Source of the DNA: Hymenobacter sp.
Lineage (GTDB): Bacteria > Bacteroidota > Bacteroidia > Cytophagales > Hymenobacteraceae
Reading direction: 5' to 3'
NCBI GenBank assembly: GCA_025353745.1
Contig: JANXOE010000088.1
Coordinates: 1-44,997 of the forward strand
DNA length: 44,997 nt
Shown: positions 2,513-32,822 of the stretch, one piece after another
Layout of the letters: each line of letters starts with the position of its first letter
Numbering within the stretch: position 1 is the first letter of the stretch
The notes under the pieces: generated by a model
Told to the model about the DNA's origin: nothing
Seen by the model: the letters and a program-made list of their open reading frames with translations, nothing else
Database searches by the model: none
Position numbers and translations under genes: made by a program

Positions 2513-5437
2513 ATGGACGCTTATTCTTATATCGCCAACGCCGACGCGGTGGCCATCGAAACGTTGTATCGGTCGTACCAGCAAAACCCCGATTCGGTGG
2601 ATTTTGGCTGGCGCAAGTTTTTCGAAGGGTTCGACTTTTCGCAGCAGTTCCCACCGGAGGGCCCCCCGCCCGCGAATGGCAGCGGCGCAGCCAGTGCCCC
2701 GGCGGCCTCTGTGGCGGCCCCCGCCGCTCCCGCGCCGCCCCAGGCCGACGACTACGGCGTGCTGAACACCGCGGCCTCGACCAACAACGCCCCCGCCAGC
2801 CTGGCCGGCGGCGAAACCATGCCCGGCGACAAGGAAACGGCCGTGCGCAACCTCATCCACGCCTACCGCAGCCGGGGCCACCTCCGGGCCAAAACCAACC
2901 CCGTGCGCGAGCGCAAAGACCGCCAGGCCCGCCTCGACCTGCCCGACTTTGGCCTGAGCGACGCCGACCTCGACACGTCTTTCCGCAACGGCGAGACGCT
3001 TGGCCTGGGGCCCCGGGCCAAGCTGCGCGACATCGTTGCGGCGCTGGAAAAAATCTATACCGGCACCGTCGGCTTCGAGTACATGTACATGCGCGACCCG
3101 CAGGTGCTCGACTGGTTCCGCGAGAAGGTGGAGCGCGAGGCGCTGGCCTTCAACCCCGGCGTGGAGTACAAAAAGCGCATCCTGAAGAAGCTCAACGAGG
3201 CCGTGGTGTTCGAGAACTTCCTGCACACCAAATTTTTGGGACAGAAGCGGTTTTCGCTCGAAGGCGGCGAGACGACCATCCCGGCCCTGGACGCCATCAT
3301 CGGCAAAGGCGCCGACCTGGGGGTAGAAGAAGTGATGATTGGCATGGCCCACCGCGGCCGGCTGAACGTGCTGGCCAACATCATGGGCAAAACGTACGAG
3401 CAGATTTTCTCGGAGTTTGAGGGCACGGCCGTGCCCGACCTGACCATGGGCGACGGCGACGTGAAGTACCACATGGGCTACTCGTCGGAGGTGAAAACGG
3501 CCAACGGCAAGAAAGTCAACCTCAAGCTGGCCCCCAACCCCTCGCACCTGGAGGCGGTGAACCCGGTGGTGGAAGGCTTTGTGCGCGCCAAAATCGAGCA
3601 CCAGTACGCCGACGACTACCACAAAATTCTGCCCATCCTCATCCACGGCGACGCGGCGCTGGCCGGCCAGGGCATCGGCTACGAGCTGATCCAGATGTCG
3701 CAGCTCGAAGGCTACAAAACCGGCGGCACGGTGCACTTCGTGATCAACAACCAGGTGGGCTTCACCACCGATTTTGAGGACGCCCGCTCCTCCATCTACT
3801 GCACCGACCTGGCCAAGATGATCGACGCGCCGGTGGTGCACGTGAACGGCGACGACCCGGAGGCGGTGGTGTTCGCGGCCCAGCTCGCCGCCGAGTACCG
3901 CCAGCAGTTCCACGCCGATATTTTCATCGACATGGTGTGCTACCGCCGCCACGGCCACAACGAGTCGGACGAGCCCAAGTTCACGCAGCCCACGCTCTAC
4001 AACCTGATCTCGAAGCACCAAAACCCGCGCGAGGTGTACAACGCCACGCTGGTGCAGCGCGGCGACGTGGACGCCGCGCTGGCCAGCCAGATGGACAAGG
4101 AGTTCCGCGACACCCTTCAGGCCCGCCTGGACATGGTGAAGCAAAAGGCGCTTCCTTATAAGTACCAGGCCCTGGAAAACGAGTGGCGCAGCCTGCGCCG
4201 CAGCACGCCGGAAGACTTCCACCAGTCGCCCGAAACCGGGATTTCGGCGGAAGCGGTGGAAAAGGTGGCCCGGGCCCTGACCACGATTCCCGACGGCTTC
4301 AAGCCCATCAAGCAGATCGACAACCTGCTGAAGGAGCGCCGCAAGATGTTTTACGAAACCCGCGTGCTGAACTGGGCCGCTGGCGAATTGCTGGCCTACG
4401 GCTCGCTGCTGGCCGAAAACCACATCGTGCGCGTGAGCGGGCAGGACTGCCAGCGCGGCACGTTCTCGCACCGCCACGCCGTGCTGCACGACGCCGAGAC
4501 GAGCGCCCCCTACAACTCCCTCAACCACCTGGAGGGCCCCCACGAAAACCTGCGCATCTTCAACTCCCTGCTCAGCGAGTACGCCGTGCTGGGCTTCGAG
4601 TTTGGCTACGGCATGGCCAACCCCACGGCCCTGGTGGTGTGGGAAGCCCAGTTCGGCGACTTCGCCAACGGCGCCCAAACCATGATCGACCAGTTCGTGG
4701 TGAGCAGCGAAAGCAAGTGGCAGCGCATGAACGGCCTGGTGATGCTGCTGCCCCACGGCTACGAAGGCCAGGGCCCCGAGCACTCCAACGCCCGCCCCGA
4801 GCGCTTTCTCCAGCTGGCGGCCGAGCACAACATCGTGGTGGCCAACCTGACCACGCCGGCCAACTTCTTCCACGCCCTGCGCCGGCAGCTGACGTGGAGC
4901 TTCCGCAAGCCGCTGGTGGTGATGGCCCCCAAGTCGATGCTGCGCCACCCGCTGTGCGTGTCGCCGGTGGAGGAGTTCACCAGCGGCAGCTTCCGCGAGG
5001 TGCTGGGCGACGACTTCGCCGAGGCCAAGAAAGTGAAGCGCGTGCTGCTGTGCTCGGGCAAGGTGTACTACGATTTGCTCGACGAGCAGCGCACCGCCGA
5101 CCGCAGGGACGTGGCCATCGTGCGCCTCGAACAGCTGCACCCCTTCCCGCAGCAGCAGTTGCAGGCCGAGCTGGCCAAGTACCCCAAGGCCAAGGTGTAC
5201 TGGGTGCAGGAGGAGCCCGAAAACATGGGCTCCTGGAACTACCTGCTGCGCTTCATGCGCCGCGAGCTCGAAGACGTGGTGGCCCGCAAGCCGTCGGCCT
5301 CGCCGGCCACGGGCTACAACAAAATCCACTTAAAAGAGCAAAAAGACCTCGTGGCCCGCGCCTTCAACAAGCCCAAGGAAGCGGTGGCCACCGGCAACAT
5401 CCAGGAAACCGCCGAAATTGCCAAAAAGCAGGACTAG
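2513..5437 (+). CDS. sucA: 2-oxoglutarate dehydrogenase E1 component
   Basis: A 974-residue thiamine-diphosphate-dependent E1 subunit of the TCA-cycle 2-oxoglutarate dehydrogenase complex. It decarboxylates 2-oxoglutarate and succinylates the lipoyl group of E2. The N-terminus (SYIANADAVAIETLYRSYQ, WRKFFEGFDF) is the usual E1o helix that docks to the complex. An Ala/Pro-rich linker follows, then the ThDP core with GMAHRGRLNVLANIMGK, HGDAALAGQG, NNQVGFTT and YRRHGHNESDEPKFTQP. The transketolase-like half contains SGQDCQRGTFSHRHAVLHD. Length is close to E. coli SucA (933). The ATG at 2513 is chosen because homologous sequence begins there; the frame is open upstream to 2384, but that part is unlike the family. 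sucB follows 184 bases later on the same strand. Confidence 0.97.
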   Translation: MDAYSYIANADAVAIETLYRSYQQNPDSVDFGWRKFFEGFDFSQQFPPEGPPPANGSGAASAPAASVAAPAAPAPPQADDYGVLNTAASTNNAPASLAGGETMPGDKETAVRNLIHAYRSRGHLRAKTNPVRERKDRQARLDLPDFGLSDADLDTSFRNGETLGLGPRAKLRDIVAALEKIYTGTVGFEYMYMRDPQVLDWFREKVEREALAFNPGVEYKKRILKKLNEAVVFENFLHTKFLGQKRFSLEGGETTIPALDAIIGKGADLGVEEVMIGMAHRGRLNVLANIMGKTYEQIFSEFEGTAVPDLTMGDGDVKYHMGYSSEVKTANGKKVNLKLAPNPSHLEAVNPVVEGFVRAKIEHQYADDYHKILPILIHGDAALAGQGIGYELIQMSQLEGYKTGGTVHFVINNQVGFTTDFEDARSSIYCTDLAKMIDAPVVHVNGDDPEAVVFAAQLAAEYRQQFHADIFIDMVCYRRHGHNESDEPKFTQPTLYNLISKHQNPREVYNATLVQRGDVDAALASQMDKEFRDTLQARLDMVKQKALPYKYQALENEWRSLRRSTPEDFHQSPETGISAEAVEKVARALTTIPDGFKPIKQIDNLLKERRKMFYETRVLNWAAGELLAYGSLLAENHIVRVSGQDCQRGTFSHRHAVLHDAETSAPYNSLNHLEGPHENLRIFNSLLSEYAVLGFEFGYGMANPTALVVWEAQFGDFANGAQTMIDQFVVSSESKWQRMNGLVMLLPHGYEGQGPEHSNARPERFLQLAAEHNIVVANLTTPANFFHALRRQLTWSFRKPLVVMAPKSMLRHPLCVSPVEEFTSGSFREVLGDDFAEAKKVKRVLLCSGKVYYDLLDEQRTADRRDVAIVRLEQLHPFPQQQLQAELAKYPKAKVYWVQEEPENMGSWNYLLRFMRRELEDVVARKPSASPATGYNKIHLKEQKDLVARAFNKPKEAVATGNIQETAEIAKKQD

Positions 5438-5621
5438 CCGTGATCAGCGAAGCGCAAATCCAAGCCGTGGTGCGGCGCATCGTTGAGGGCCCCGTTGCTG
5501 CGTGGCGGCTTTGGGGCCCCGCTGCGGGCCGGCGCGGCGGGCCGGTTTCGCGATAAGCTGCGCCTTTGGCCATTGCATTTTTACCTTAAATTCTTCCAGA
5601 CGCCTTTTTTGCCCGCTGCCC

Positions 5622-7271
5622 ATGCCCACTGAAATCAAAATCCCCGCCGTCGGCGAATCCATCACGGAAGTGACCATCGCCAAGTGGCTGAAAAAAGACG
5701 GCGAGGCCGTGAAGCGCGACGAAGTGATTGCCGAGCTGGAGTCCGACAAAGCCACCTTTGAGCTGCCCGCCGAAGCCGACGGCGTGCTGAAAATCCGGGT
5801 GGCCGAAGGCGAAACCATCGGCATCGGCACCGTCATCGCCGACCTCAGCGGCGAGGCGGGGGCCCCGGCCGCTCCCGCACCGGCCGCGGCCGCCGCCCCG
5901 GCCCCTACCGCCGACCCTTTGTCCCAAGGCGAAGAAAACCCCCAAGCCAGCGACTTGGCCGGCTACGGCGGCACGCCCGCCGACCGCCCCGGCGGCAGCC
6001 CGGGGGCCCCGGTCGCTACGCCCGCCGCCAGCGGCGGTGCGGTGGAAATGCGGATTCCAACCGTCGGCGAGTCCATCACGGAAGTGACCATCGCCAAGTG
6101 GCTGAAAAAAGACGGCGAGGCCGTGAAGCGCGACGAAGTGATTGCCGAGCTGGAGTCCGACAAAGCCACCTTCGAACTGCCCGCCGAGGCCGACGGCGTG
6201 CTGCGCCACGCCGCTCAGGAAGGCGAAACCATCGGCATCGGGGCCCTCATTGCGCGCATTGAAAGTGGGGCCGGGGCCACCGCCGCTGCGCCTGCGCCGC
6301 CCGCCGCCCCGGCCCTCGCCGTGCCGCTGGCCCAGGCCCCCGCCGCGGGGGCCGTCGCTACCTACGCCACGGGCGTGCCCTCGCCGGCCGCGGGTAAAAT
6401 CCTGGACGAGAAAGGCGTGGCTGCTGCCGACGTGGCCGGCTCGGGCCGCGACGGCCGCATTACCAAAGAAGACGCCCAGAATGCCCAGGCGCGGCCCGTG
6501 GCCCCCGCGCCCCCGGCCCCGGCTGCTGTGGCGGCCCCGGCCGCCGCGCCGCCGACGGCCCCGGCCGGCAGCCGCGGCCAGCGCCGCGAGCGGATGAGCA
6601 ACCTGCGCAAAACGGTGGCCCGCCGCCTGGTGGCCGTGAAAAACGAAACGGCCATGCTCACCACCTTCAACGAGGTGAACATGCAGCCTATCATGGACTT
6701 GCGCACCAAGTTCAAGGACAAGTTCAAGGAGAAAAACGGCGTGGGGCTGGGCTTTATGTCGTTCTTCACCAAGGCCGTGTGCGTGGCCCTGAAGGAGTGG
6801 CCGGCCGTGAACGCCCAAATCGACGGCACGGACCTGGTGTACAACGACTTCTGCGACATCAGCATCGCCGTGTCGGCCCCCAAGGGCCTGGTGGTGCCGG
6901 TGATCCGCAACGCCGAGCAGCTTTCGTTCGACGGCATCGAGAAGGAAGTGGTGCGCCTGGCCGGCCTGGCCCGCGACAACAAGCTGACCATCGAGCAGAT
7001 GACGGGCGGCACGTTCACCATCACCAACGGCGGCATTTTTGGCTCGATGCTGAGCACGCCCATCATCAATGCGCCGCAATCGGCCATTTTGGGCATGCAC
7101 AACATCATCCAGCGCCCGGTGGCCGAGAACGGCCAGGTGGTCATCCGCCCGATGATGTACCTGGCCCTGAGCTACGACCACCGCATCATCGACGGCCGCG
7201 AGTCCGTCAGCTTCCTGGTGCGGGTAAAGGAATTGCTCGAAGACCCCACGCGCCTGCTGCTGGGGGTGTAA
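5622..7271 (+). CDS. sucB: Dihydrolipoyl succinyltransferase (E2) with two lipoyl domains
   Basis: A 549-residue E2 core of the 2-oxoglutarate dehydrogenase complex; it moves the succinyl group from lipoamide to CoA. Order of domains: lipoyl domain 1 (about 2-78, lipoyl Lys43 in SDKATF), Ala/Pro linker, lipoyl domain 2 (about 140-215, Lys181 in the same context), Ala/Pro linker, E3-binding domain (about 250-288, [13 protein letters not shown] and [10 protein letters not shown]), linker, then the acyltransferase domain. The active site is H520 and D524 in [10 protein letters not shown] near the C-terminus. The E. coli protein has one lipoyl domain and 405 residues, so the extra domain accounts for the length. 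The two lipoyl domains are almost identical in DNA (see the repeat entry). The start is the ATG giving [13 protein letters not shown]. Assignment to oxoglutarate rather than pyruvate dehydrogenase rests on its place after sucA. Confidence 0.95.
5649..6203 (+). repeat. Pair of near-identical 141-bp direct repeats inside sucB
   Basis: Copies lie at 5649-5789 and 6063-6203, exactly 414 bases (138 codons) apart. Aligned by eye they differ at four positions, all synonymous third-base changes (GAA/GAG, TTT/TTC, GAG/GAA, GAA/GAG). Each encodes the core of a lipoyl domain. Beyond the repeats the linker sequences are unrelated. This points to recent duplication or ongoing gene conversion. Confidence 0.95.
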
Positions 7272-29004: not shown

Positions 29005-29715
29005 TCAGTTCCCGCCGCCGGGGATGATCAGCTGCCAGCGAAACGCCCAGCGCCAGCGCAGCTCGTAGCGTGCGATGCCGGCGCGGGCCAGCAGCGGCCC
29101 CCAATCGGCGCGCCGGAAGGCGCGGGCCACCGACAGCGGCGCGTCGTGGCGCACCAGATAGGAGCCGCCCAGCAGCCGCGTGAGCCATTTGATGCCGTGG
29201 TAGGCCAGCCAGTGCCGGTGCAGGTCGTTGACGACGACGGCCACCCGCGCCTGCCCGGCCCACTGCCGGAGCAGGGCCCCCAGCTCGTCGTCGGTGAAGT
29301 GGTGGCAGAACAGGCTGGCCGTCAGCACGTCGTAGGTTTCGGCCTGGAATTTAGCCGAGAAGATGTCGGCCTGCTGGTAGCTGATTTCGGGGTAGTCGGC
29401 GCTTTTGGCGCGGGCGTAGTCCAGCATGAACGGGTTGGCGTCGACGCCGGTCAGCGCCACGGGCACGCCGTTGCGGCGGGCCCAGCGGGCCACGTGGCGC
29501 AGCGTGTCGCCGCCGCCACTGCCGAGGTCGGCCAGGCGCAGGGGCCGCCCGGCCGGAAACCGGCTTTTGAGCCGGTCCAGGGCGTTCAGCACCGGCTGGT
29601 AGCCGCCGAGCCACGTGTTGATGGTTTCCAACTCGTCGAGGTTTTGGCGCAGCGCGTCGTCGGCCAGCGTCAGGTCGTCCATCAGCTCGGGGCCGGGCGC
29701 TCGTTTATCCAACAT
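29005..29715 (-). CDS. SAM-dependent methyltransferase of the polyketide operon
   Basis: A 236-residue class I methyltransferase. Motif I is RLADLGSGGGDT (about 60-71), followed by LTGVDANPFMLDYAR and YDVLTASLFCHHF, as in UbiE/methyltransferase_25-type enzymes. The C-terminus carries a Trp/Arg-rich end (ELRWRWAFRWQ). The ATG at 29715 is chosen: it lies 10 bases after the polyketide synthase stop. An alternative at 29808 would overlap that gene. It is the third gene of a minus-strand operon after the flavoprotein and the type III synthase, so a role in O- or C-methylating the synthase product is inferred. SrsB of Streptomyces griseus is the functional analogue. Confidence 0.88.
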   Translation of the reverse strand: MLDKRAPGPELMDDLTLADDALRQNLDELETINTWLGGYQPVLNALDRLKSRFPAGRPLRLADLGSGGGDTLRHVARWARRNGVPVALTGVDANPFMLDYARAKSADYPEISYQQADIFSAKFQAETYDVLTASLFCHHFTDDELGALLRQWAGQARVAVVVNDLHRHWLAYHGIKWLTRLLGGSYLVRHDAPLSVARAFRRADWGPLLARAGIARYELRWRWAFRWQLIIPGGGN

Positions 29716-29725
29716 GAGCCGTCGA

Positions 29726-30964
29726 TCAGTTAGCCGCCGCCTCGGCTTCGGCGAAACTGCTTTCCGTGGCGTGAGCTGCCGTTTTGCTGGTTCTGGCCGC
29801 GTTTTCAACGGTTAGCTGGTCATCGTTGAAGGCAACCTCCAGCAGCATGGCCTCCATCGTCAGGCCCGGCCCGAAGGCGAAGCTGAGCACGGGGGCCCCG
29901 TGGTCGGCCGGGGTGGCGTGGGCCAGCACGTCGCGCAGCACAAACAGCACCGTGGCCGACGACATGTTGCCGTAGTCGCGCAGCACGCGGTAGGCGTGGC
30001 GGTTGTCGGCGCGGGTCAGGCCGAGCTCGCCCTCGATGGTTTCGAGGATTTTACGGCCCCCGGGGTGGATGGCGAAGTGGCGGATGTCGGCCAGCTGCAC
30101 GGGCAAGCTGTCGAGCAGCCCGTCGGTGAGGCGCCGGATGCCGCGCTGAATCAGCCGGGGCACGTAGGCGGAGAGCGTCATTTCAAACCCAAAGTCGTTG
30201 ATGTGCCACGCCATGTCGTCGTGGCCGTCGGGCTCCAGGCCGCAGTGAAACGCTTGCAGGGCCAGGCTGGGGGCCCCGTTGGGCAGCGGCGCGGCCTGCA
30301 CCAGCGCGGCCGCCGCGCCGTCGCCAAACAGGGCGTTGCTGACGAGGTGGTCTTCGGCCGCGCTTTTCTGGAAGTGGAGCGTGCACAGCTCCACGCTCAC
30401 CACGAGCACGCGGGCGCGGGCATCGGCCAGGCAAAAGGCGTCGGCCAGCTTCAGGGCGTTCACGGCGGCGTAGCAGCCCATGAAGTTCACGCAGGTGCGG
30501 CGCACGTCGGGCCGCAGGCCCAGGGCCTGCACCAGCTCAATGTCGAGGCCCGGCGCGTACATGCCCGTGCAGCTCACCGTGATGAGGTGCGTGACGCTGG
30601 CCGGGGCCACGTCGGGCACCTGGCGCAGGCAGTCGCGCACGGCTTCGGTGGCCAGGGGCAAGGCCGCGCGGCGGTACACGGCCATGCGCTGGCCCACGCC
30701 CGGGAACGGCTCCAGGCCGGGCGTGTTGGGGAAAAACGTGTACGCGCCGTTGGCCCGGCCGTAGTCGGGCAGCACCGAGTAGCGGTGCTCGATGCCCGAC
30801 ACCCGGTACAGCGCCCGCAGCTTGCGCGCGTCGTGCTCCCCGAATTCCAGGGCCTGGGCCATGAAATCGGCAATTTGCAGCTGGGCAATGCGGTGGACGG
30901 GGTTGGCAGTGCCGATGGCACCTAAATAGCTCGGCATTCCGGAGGGCGTTACGGATTCTGACAA
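29726..30964 (-). CDS. Type III polyketide synthase
   Basis: A 412-residue homodimeric ketosynthase that condenses malonyl-CoA units on an acyl starter. The catalytic triad is complete: C164 in CVNFMGCYAAV, H300 in FAIHPGG and N333 in YGNMSSATV. SCTGMYAPGLD, LFGDGAAAAL and the C-terminal FGPGLTMEAMLLE are family-typical. The N-terminal PSYLGAIGTANPVHRI is the usual start of the fold; an alternative Met at residue 10 is possible. The last 30 residues (AARTSKTAAHATESS) are an extra tail. The product type cannot be read from sequence. The neighbours (methyltransferase and FAD oxidoreductase) fit alkylresorcinol/alkylquinone-type phenolic lipids. A 164-base gap precedes the gene. Confidence 0.93.
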   Translation of the reverse strand: MSESVTPSGMPSYLGAIGTANPVHRIAQLQIADFMAQALEFGEHDARKLRALYRVSGIEHRYSVLPDYGRANGAYTFFPNTPGLEPFPGVGQRMAVYRRAALPLATEAVRDCLRQVPDVAPASVTHLITVSCTGMYAPGLDIELVQALGLRPDVRRTCVNFMGCYAAVNALKLADAFCLADARARVLVVSVELCTLHFQKSAAEDHLVSNALFGDGAAAALVQAAPLPNGAPSLALQAFHCGLEPDGHDDMAWHINDFGFEMTLSAYVPRLIQRGIRRLTDGLLDSLPVQLADIRHFAIHPGGRKILETIEGELGLTRADNRHAYRVLRDYGNMSSATVLFVLRDVLAHATPADHGAPVLSFAFGPGLTMEAMLLEVAFNDDQLTVENAARTSKTAAHATESSFAEAEAAAN

Positions 30965-31128
30965 TCAGGCGGTATACGGGTGTTGCGGCCGCTGAATGTA
31001 CAGGCCACCCCGGACATCGGCGCTGCTACTTACGGCAGAACCAACGGCTTTGCGCAATGCCTAGCTAAAATAACGCCAATAACATTCCGGCGTTCGGGGC
31101 CCTGCCGGCAGGTGCTGAGCGGGTTGCC

Positions 31129-32247
31129 CTAAAACGCCTGGCCGTGGGTGCGCCGCATCAGCGCCCGCACGGCCCCCGGCCAGTGGCGCAGGCCGCCCAC
31201 CACGGCCTCGCTCAGCACGGGGCCCCCGAACAGGCCCTGCACCGCACGCCCCACCCGCAGCCGCGCCCCAAACTGCGCCCGCCAGGCGTGGGCGTAGGCC
31301 GCTTCCATGGCGGGGCGCGAAGTTTTTTCGGCCAGGAAATCGTGGGCGGCGGCGGCGGCCAGGGCGGCCCCGTGCAGGGCCATGGCCATGCCGTTGCCGC
31401 ACAAAGGCGTGATGAGGCCGGCCGCGTCGCCGCACATCAGCACGTGCTGCTCCACGGGCTGCTTCGGGGCGAAGGAAATCTCGTTGATGACCTCCGGCTG
31501 CGGGTACAGAAATTCGGCGTCGCGGAAAACGGCGCGCAGGTGCGGGTTTTGGTGCAGCACGGCCGCCTCCATCGCCGGAATGCTGCCGTGGTCCTTTAGG
31601 TTCTGGCGGGCGGTGAGGTAGCAGAAGCACACTTTCCCGTCTTCGATGGCCGAAATCCCCGCGTAGCCGTTGCGGAAGTTGTGCAGCGCAATCACGTCGC
31701 GGGCCAGGCCCGGCAGGCGCAAATGGTACTTTACCCCGAGGTAGGGCGAGCGCTGCTGAAAAAACGGCCGCGCCAGCTGGCGGTCCAGGTTGGCGCGCTT
31801 GCCGTAGGCCCCCAGCACCACGCGCGGGGCCAGCGTGCGGCCGTCGGCCAGGGCCACCGCGTGGCGGCCCGCGGCAGCGTCGAAGGCCACGCCGGCCACC
31901 GTGGCGGGCAGATAGAACGCCACCCCCGCGGCCAGGGCCCGCCGGTACAAAAACTCGTCGAGCACGTAGCGGCTCACCCCGAAGCCGCCCGGGTCGAGGG
32001 GGCTGCGCAGCACCCGGCCGGCCGGCGACGAAAGCTCAAACCGCCGGATGTCGGCCGGGCCCAGCGGGGCAGGGTCGGCGCCGAGCCGGGCCAGGTAAGG
32101 GCGCACCTCGTTGCTCAGGTACTCGCCGCACACCCGGTGGAAGGGGTAGGCCCGGCGCTCCACCACGGCCACTTCGTGCCCGCGCCCGGCCAGGTCGAGG
32201 GCCCCCGCCAAACCGGCCAATCCGCCGCCAATAATGAGAACGTCCAC
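31129..32247 (-). CDS. FAD-dependent oxidoreductase (geranylgeranyl-reductase/hydroxylase-like)
   Basis: A 372-residue flavoprotein. The FAD-binding VLIIGGGLAGLAGALDLAGRG starts at residue 3 and ends in VVERR. The motif FHRVCGEYLSNEV (C40) resembles the conserved PxxxxCG of geranylgeranyl-reductase-type enzymes. The C-terminal FAD contact is MCGDAAGLITPLCGNGMAMAL. It is the first gene of the operon that continues with the type III synthase and methyltransferase. A role in hydroxylating or oxidising the polyketide ring (compare SrsC), or in reducing a prenyl chain, is inferred from family and context. The short gap to the synthase gene (30965-31128) contains a perfect 12-base palindrome at 31101-31112. 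Confidence 0.88.
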   Translation of the reverse strand: MDVLIIGGGLAGLAGALDLAGRGHEVAVVERRAYPFHRVCGEYLSNEVRPYLARLGADPAPLGPADIRRFELSSPAGRVLRSPLDPGGFGVSRYVLDEFLYRRALAAGVAFYLPATVAGVAFDAAAGRHAVALADGRTLAPRVVLGAYGKRANLDRQLARPFFQQRSPYLGVKYHLRLPGLARDVIALHNFRNGYAGISAIEDGKVCFCYLTARQNLKDHGSIPAMEAAVLHQNPHLRAVFRDAEFLYPQPEVINEISFAPKQPVEQHVLMCGDAAGLITPLCGNGMAMALHGAALAAAAAHDFLAEKTSRPAMEAAYAHAWRAQFGARLRVGRAVQGLFGGPVLSEAVVGGLRHWPGAVRALMRRTHGQAF

Positions 32248-32315: not shown

Positions 32316-32349
32316 TTGTCAATAACATAGGTATTTAATATTACCTTTG
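32316..32349 (+). promoter_or_regulatory. Bacteroidota-type promoter for the T9SS-tail gene
   Basis: TTG at 32316-32318 and TACCTTTG at 32342-32349 are 23 bases apart, at the long end of the TTG-N17-23-TAnnTTTG consensus. They sit in an AT-rich stretch between divergent genes, 89 bases before the start at 32439. Confidence 0.65.
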
Positions 32350-32438
32350 CCAACCAAAACCGATTCCTCCCGTTAGTCCTAATCAGCCTTGCCCGTCTCA
32401 CACCGGCCGGGCCGGTTTTCTACTCCCTGAATTCCTGT

Positions 32439-32822
32439 ATGATGCCACGCCTACTCACGATTTCTTGTTGCATTGCCTTGGCTGCTAGCGGCCTTGCCAG
32501 CGCTGTGGCCCGCCCCGCTCCCGGAGAGGCCGGGCGTGCAACGTCGGTGCAAGTGCGCCCCGGCAACGACGACAAAACGCTGGTGATCTACCCCAACCCC
32601 AGCACCGGCATCGTGCACCTCACCATCAACGGCCAGGAGGGCCGCCGCGTCGAGCTGCAAGTGCTGAACGTCATCGGCTCGGTGATCTACCGCGAAACGA
32701 TGAGCGACCTGAACGACCGCGCGACCAAGGTGCTCGATTTGAGCCGCTTCGCCAACGGCCTGTATTACGTGAAGCTGGAAGGCGGCGGCACCAACCAAAT
32801 GAGTAAGCTCGTCATCCACTAA
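32439..32822 (+). CDS. Secreted mini-protein with only a T9SS C-terminal sorting domain
   Basis: A 127-residue protein consisting of a signal peptide (about 1-25, LLTISCCIALAASGLASAVA), a short linker, and one domain that matches the type IX secretion sorting tail. Its key features are VIYPNPSTGIVHLTI, RRVELQVLNVIGSVIY, LDLSRFANGLYYVKLEGGG and the final KLVIH. No catalytic or adhesive domain lies before the tail. Such tails are normally cleaved and used to anchor cargo at the cell surface in Bacteroidota. A tail alone is unusual: it could be a surface adapter, a decoy for the sorting machinery, or the remnant of a larger protein. A good promoter lies upstream and a terminator just after the stop. 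Confidence 0.85.
   Translation: MMPRLLTISCCIALAASGLASAVARPAPGEAGRATSVQVRPGNDDKTLVIYPNPSTGIVHLTINGQEGRRVELQVLNVIGSVIYRETMSDLNDRATKVLDLSRFANGLYYVKLEGGGTNQMSKLVIH

Follow-up and report, generated by a model that had tools for sequence, protein, structure and literature searches.

The polyketide synthase operon and its genes

We analyzed a stretch of 44,997 nucleotides from Hymenobacter sp. (contig JANXOE010000088.1 of assembly GCA_025353745.1, positions 1 to 44,997), here called the window, which carries an operon for a flavoprotein oxidoreductase (OX), a type III polyketide synthase (PKS) and an S-adenosylmethionine (SAM)-dependent methyltransferase (MT). The initial annotation of the window had matched the three genes to srsA-srsB-srsC of Streptomyces griseus and proposed a phenolic-lipid cluster. 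More telling than the srs analogy is a UbiA-type partner, c4, which the initial annotation missed and which changes the likely end product: its gene is unlinked to the operon in this genome, adjacent to the PKS gene in many relatives and fused to it in one genus.

The three-gene operon was confirmed, with all genes present on the minus strand as open reading frames (ORFs) of the families expected. Its features are the following.

31129-32247, minus strand: OX, FAD-dependent oxidoreductase of 372 amino acids with a GTG start, first gene of the operon (ORF listing and family profiles)
30940-31128, minus strand: gap of 189 nt separating OX from the probable start of the PKS gene (sequence)
29726-30964, minus strand: PKS, type III polyketide synthase, ORF of 412 amino acids (ORF listing and Pfam)
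30473-30475, minus strand: codon of the PKS catalytic residue Cys164 (alignment)
30206-30208, minus strand: codon of PKS Trp253 (alignment with PKS11 Trp230 and PKS18 Leu266)
29005-29715, minus strand: MT, SAM-dependent methyltransferase of 236 amino acids (Pfam and a start fitted to homologues)

The likely start of the PKS is the ATG at 30939, near which the aligned homologues begin and which gives a protein of 403 amino acids. The longest ORF for MT extends to 29808 and overlaps the PKS gene, and the ATG at 29715, 10 nt past the PKS stop codon, agrees with the homologues. A separate promoter inside the gap between OX and PKS is possible. A frameshift in OX was considered, as many tblastn matches started at residue 22, yet 12 translated loci showed an unbroken frame and the idea was rejected.

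The window PKS is a type III polyketide synthase by both Pfam families (PF00195, 1.8e-29 and 103.2 bits; PF02797, 9.6e-22 and 78.1 bits; cut-off, 27 bits) and by its catalytic triad, which is intact, as first described, and consists of Cys164, His300 and Asn333 in the alignment. MT matches PF13649 (4.8e-13) and is a class I SAM methyltransferase resembling PRK06202, with an NCBIfam score of 151 bits that lies below the cut-off of 243. OX matches several Pfam families of the FAD fold, none of which spans its full length.

Conservation of the operon in Hymenobacter and across Bacteroidota

Scanning genome contigs, we found 107 PKS relatives and kept the best 80, 79 of them titled Hymenobacter and one Solirubrum. 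The gene order on which the initial annotation had let its proposal depend is conserved: OX lies upstream of the PKS gene, in tandem on the same strand, in 80/80 of these loci. The MT gene comes next in 71 of them, in the same orientation, and lies on the opposite strand in seven; in the remaining two, the DNA retrieved showed no MT gene. Including the window, all three triad residues are present in 81/81 Hymenobacter and Solirubrum PKS rows; among the other Bacteroidota rows, the cysteine is found in 91/91 and the histidine and the asparagine in 90/91 each. The extra C-terminal tail noted for the PKS is indeed long (49 residues from the FGPG motif to the end), and its status as a special domain was rejected, since its length varies by lineage, with 34 to 53 residues in 42 of the 80 loci and 15 to 22 in the other 38.

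Type III PKS genes are widespread in the phylum, with PF02797 present in 190 of 395 sampled genomes. We examined the surroundings of the PKS gene at 60 such loci (L112 to L171); 30 further loci of 3.4 kb each (L082 to L111) were left out of the neighborhood counts beyond one early count. PKS, MT and OX co-occur in other Bacteroidota in three orders, PKS-MT-OX, OX-PKS-MT and OX-MT-PKS, and at 15 of the 60 loci a gene of about 300 residues, c4, directly adjoins the PKS gene; it was assigned to UbiA by Pfam in the three cases tested. The neighbors of other PKS clades are an ICMT-type methyltransferase; FabG, FabA and ketosynthase genes; or a MatE transporter with a FAD_binding_3 monooxygenase. 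The ICMT-type gene (c12; Pfam on one) accompanies a separate PKS clade at L152, L157, L159, L164, L165 and L171, a pairing that resembles bpsA-bpsB of Bacillus. The MatE-type transporter gene stands immediately upstream of the PKS gene in flavobacteria-like clusters (L132 to L134, L137, L142 and L147).

A UbiA-type partner of the polyketide synthase

The source genome has five PF01040 matches, four of them above the cut-off, and carries one c4 gene, on contig C214 and away from the operon (350 bits). By the PF01040 cut-off of 34.2 bits, c4 belongs to the UbiA superfamily, with 67.5 bits for the protein of this genome and 54.9 to 61.8 bits for those of relatives, and the protein of this genome retains the motif residues of the c4 group.

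Among 194 genomes of the order (Cytophagales), c4 was found in 143, PKS in 142, OX in 134 and MT in 124. Both c4 and PKS are present in 139 genomes, c4 alone in four, PKS alone in three and neither in 48 (phi, 0.91). As a control we used PF00850, the family of a gene neighboring the operon in the window, which has the same prevalence as PKS (142/194); its corresponding counts against PKS were 120, 22, 22 and 30 (phi, 0.42). The absences are soft because a fixed number of candidates was scored per genome (12 for c4 in the order and six in the phylum, and 10 for OX). Two of the genomes with c4 only are 81% and 84% complete (G504 and G514), and a third, G544, has a decayed c4 (L235, positions 5405 to 6259) that lacks the N..D.D metal motif. 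Two of the three genomes counted as having PKS only carry a distant PKS of about 212 bits. In the phylum sample, all 26 genomes with a strict c4 match also have a PF02797 match, compared with 190 of 395 genomes overall.

The two genes also often lie close together: 63 of the 139 genomes having both, spread over 11 of the 15 families, have c4 within 3 kb of the PKS gene. In four members of a single genus (G457, G507, G539 and G564; L198 to L201), they form one ORF of 652 residues, in which c4 covers about residues 2 to 288 and PKS residues 293 to 650 with no visible linker (Pfam on one), and the MT and OX genes come next. Two of the four genomes are near-identical, so there are perhaps three independent instances, and a fifth member of the genus (L202) has c4 and PKS as separate, adjacent genes. 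Co-occurrence, adjacency and fusion thus establish a functional link between c4 and the PKS.

The distribution of c4 follows the PKS phylogeny. Our PKS tree had 77 rows, namely, the window, five of the 80 Hymenobacter and Solirubrum loci, 67 other Bacteroidota and four named plasmid rows, with the rows of family f24 labeled as lacking c4. All 27 PKS rows from genomes with a strict c4 match fall on one side of a single branch (97/97; 98% of 200 bootstrap trees), and the 46 rows without one fall outside this clade; the PKS of locus L170 sits on a very long branch. The 34 divergent c4 matches in family f24 (124 to 163 bits) all come from PKS-bearing genomes, and we did not count them as support because those whose surroundings were retrieved lie in a different context, with thioredoxin and aminotransferase genes. 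The PKS of a Psychrobacter urativorans plasmid (L218; 48 to 49% identity) falls within the c4 clade of Bacteroidota and has convergent OX and MT genes beside it. This PKS was probably acquired by horizontal transfer without c4; a search of named plasmids for c4 relatives gave none at 1e-5. A PKS on a Streptomyces plasmid that carried no annotation was set aside. A gene of about 260 to 300 amino acids upstream of c4 in Hymenobacter had no match in Pfam.

A proposed pathway and its alternatives

We propose, with a probability of roughly 55%, that the operon produces a phenolic lipid of the alkylresorcinol type and that, with the unlinked c4, this lipid becomes a prenylated and methylated hydroquinone or quinone. 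Judging from its family, Trp253 and the planctomycete enzymes described below, the PKS would load a long-chain acyl group on Cys164, add malonyl units and close the tetraketide by aldol condensation to a 5-alkylresorcinol. OX would then oxidize the ring, MT would methylate oxygen or carbon (its relatives do either), and the phenol would be prenylated by c4, a membrane enzyme whose gene lies on a different contig. The product would remain in the membrane, and a function in redox chemistry or as an antioxidant is conjecture modeled on the actinobacterial polyketide quinones (PMC9927152, in the part available). The starter, ring type, order of steps, prenyl group and function are all predictions. 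Several points weigh against this proposal; they concern the individual enzymes and are given with the alternatives below.

The ring type is suggested by Trp253 of the PKS, which aligns with Trp230 of PKS11 (via locus L159) and with Leu266 of PKS18 and is present in 81/81 Hymenobacter and Solirubrum rows and in 87/91 other Bacteroidota rows. The accessible part of PMC5916927 equates this position with Trp281 of ArsB, described there as essential for resorcinols, and a W281G variant of ArsB is reported to yield pyrones (PMC6274091, likewise in part). We mapped the residue through PKS11 and took the equivalence to ArsB itself from the former source; with this mapping, the window PKS has the tryptophan expected of an alkylresorcinol synthase. 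PKS11 bears the same tryptophan and carries the name alpha-pyrone synthase, and Trp253 is therefore a pointer to resorcinols and not proof of them. Pyrones or acylphloroglucinols would also be in keeping with the best NCBIfam match of the PKS, DpgA, at 172 bits under a cut-off of 425, and with MMAR_2474, which makes several ring types according to the portion of PMC5916927 consulted. Trp253 and the operon context, with its match in Paludisphaera, argue against such products, which we regard as improbable, and a resorcinol is the preferred reading. In clusters of family f7 (L127, L129, L130 and L166), which have the order OX-MT-PKS followed by FabA-like and ketosynthase genes, with an SDR gene lying between in L130 and L166, the PKS has phenylalanine at position 253. 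These clusters likely make another product because phenylalanine replaces the tryptophan.

The flavoprotein is of an unusual kind, as the initial annotation had recognized from its CGE motif, which we located at Cys40-Gly41-Glu42 and found invariant in 17 diverse homologues. Its two best profile scores are close to each other and both below the curated cut-offs, at 100.4 bits for the flavin monooxygenase QhpG (cut-off, 240) and 95.6 bits for the geranylgeranyl reductase family TIGR02032 (cut-off, 158.8). An AlphaFold model (mean pLDDT, 87.4; 60 alignment rows) has the fold shared by PHBH, halogenases and geranylgeranyl reductases. It matched the halogenase PltA (Z score, 35.7), 3-hydroxybenzoate 6-hydroxylase (32.5), PHBH (31.0) and the geranylgeranyl-reductase-like structure 3oz2 (30.8) about equally, so the fold fails to discriminate between hydroxylase, halogenase and reductase, which does not help the case for ring oxidation. 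The genomic context favors ring oxidation, because full-length FAD_binding_3 proteins of the aromatic hydroxylase type occupy the OX slot in two Deinococcus operons and three of family f24 and because relatives of OX are also found in operons without c4 nearby. The alternative that OX instead saturates double bonds in the prenyl chain, in the manner of geranylgeranyl reductases, draws on the TIGR02032 score, the CGE motif and the 3oz2 match, and on the agq products of Actinoplanes, which bear a dihydrogeranyl chain. Besides the genomic context and the sub-cut-off scores, it is opposed by the lack of an OX match in 12 of the 143 c4 genomes and by halogenases and aromatic hydroxylases that fit the model at least as well, and we consider chain reduction unlikely. 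A paralogue of OX with 40% identity is encoded on the Hymenobacter swuensis plasmid pHsw1 (L223, positions 4869 to 6053), beside genes for an isonitrile synthase and a TauD dioxygenase, so this flavoprotein family serves another kind of cluster too.

Further points tell against the proposal. UbiA enzymes usually have an odd number of membrane helices and a cytosolic N end, and their canonical second motif starts with aspartate. In c4, the first motif, N..D.D, is kept, and the second reads QH..D in 50/50 proteins of the main group; with glutamine in place of the first aspartate, ordinary prenyl transfer is not certain. A crude hydropathy count gave six or seven segments for c4, and if the helix number is odd and the N end cytosolic, the PKS part of the fusion would end up on the wrong side of the membrane. 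The association of c4 with PKS also has clean exceptions, G459 with c4 and no PKS and G531 with PKS and no c4, and its Fisher P value of 5.7e-37 overstates the evidence, as the genomes are related. Among the 142 PKS genomes, OX was missing in 10 and MT in 20, with a limited number of candidates scored. Finally, c4 stands beside the PKS gene in none of 17 Hymenobacteraceae genomes, so that the link for Hymenobacter rests on its relatives.

These points leave room for a product without prenylation, a methylated and oxidized alkylresorcinol like hierridin or the planctomycete compounds, with c4 serving another pathway of coincident distribution. Paludisphaera, Deinococcus and Roseomonas have PKS, MT and OX genes without c4 on the fetched 9 to 11 kb, and only 26 of the 190 PKS-bearing Bacteroidota sampled have a strict c4 match. 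Against this stand the fusion, the adjacency, the contrast in phi between c4 and the control and the confinement of c4 to one PKS clade, and we judge the unprenylated product to be unlikely, if somewhat less so than the alternatives for the PKS and OX. The prenylated lipid remains our preferred product. A bolder version holds that most of the order makes an as yet undescribed membrane meroterpenoid, a prenylated polyketide hydroquinone or quinone, which would act alongside menaquinone as an additional redox carrier or as an antioxidant, and that a single UbiA-PKS fusion enzyme carries out polyketide synthesis and prenylation in one genus; we offer it tentatively, as a doubtful extension of the proposal.

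Comparison with known systems

The initial match to srsABC held for composition and failed for gene order and for the nearest demonstrated relative, which is a planctomycete operon. In S. griseus the PKS gene comes first and is followed by the methyltransferase and hydroxylase genes (PMC9927152), whereas the order here is OX-PKS-MT; the composition (PKS, methyltransferase and hydroxylase or oxidoreductase) was compared by description. The srs and pkq products are alkylresorcinol-derived quinones, proposed as electron carriers in mycobacteria and Streptomyces, and the part of that source available mentions neither UbiA nor a prenyl group.

Planctomycete PKSs from MT-OX-PKS operons made alkylresorcinols in C. 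glutamicum, according to the part of PMC10896814 at hand, in which no UbiA is reported for the operon. All three gene families of the window are present in the Paludisphaera MT-OX-PKS operon (profile scores of 88 bits for OX, 117 for MT and 292 for PKS), and the proposal of a phenolic-lipid type operon is supported. The hierridin genes have the order hidC, hidA, hidB in the accessible text of PMC8086630. We call the window operon a relative and not a member of the hid and planctomycete type because its order is OX-PKS-MT rather than MT-OX-PKS or PKS-MT-OX; the order varies within Bacteroidota.

The pairing of a type III PKS with UbiA is already known in Actinobacteria. In Actinoplanes missouriensis, agqABCD is described as using a type III PKS to make alkylresorcinols, which then undergo prenylation and hydroxylation (PMC10896814), with O-prenylation catalyzed by a UbiA/MenA-like membrane prenyltransferase (PMC4044012) and with agqB to agqD accompanying agqA (PMC7692728), each source being available in part. 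Compared by description, a type III PKS, a methyltransferase, an oxidizing flavoprotein and a UbiA-type prenyltransferase are all encoded in the source genome, and on our best reading the proposed Hymenobacter pathway would work like the agq pathway. It differs in phylum and in the placement of the prenyltransferase gene, which shares the cluster in 63 of the 139 Cytophagales genomes noted above and in none of the 17 Hymenobacteraceae, and is fused to the PKS gene in one genus. In Micromonospora endolithica, the loseolamycin region has genes for a UbiA-family prenyltransferase and a methyltransferase at a distance of two to three genes from losA, the PKS gene, whereas the alkylresorcinols isolated are described without prenyl groups and UbiA goes undiscussed in the part of PMC7587189 available. 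Within Bacteroidota, the UbiA-type prenyltransferase Ubi-297/EboC farnesylates aromatic substrates; it is part of the ebo cluster (PMC9235831). In the literature searched, which left most subscription journals outside, we found no paper pairing a type III PKS with UbiA in Bacteroidota and no product assigned to this operon there.

The link between c4 and PKS, by profile, adjacency and fusion, turns an open-ended type III PKS cluster into a testable four-enzyme pathway and points chemists to prenylated rather than plain phenolic lipids. The natural UbiA-PKS fusion is material for enzymology, and the almost universal retention across the order may point to a housekeeping role in the membrane.

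Surroundings of the operon

The operon is flanked in the window by a convergent histone-deacetylase-like gene downstream and a divergent gene for a secretion-tail protein upstream. The element TACCTTTGCCAA lies at 32342-32353 on the plus strand and precedes the secretion-tail gene at 32439; we take it to resemble the Bacteroidota -7 promoter element, and its letters recur upstream of OX in two other loci (L003 and L007).

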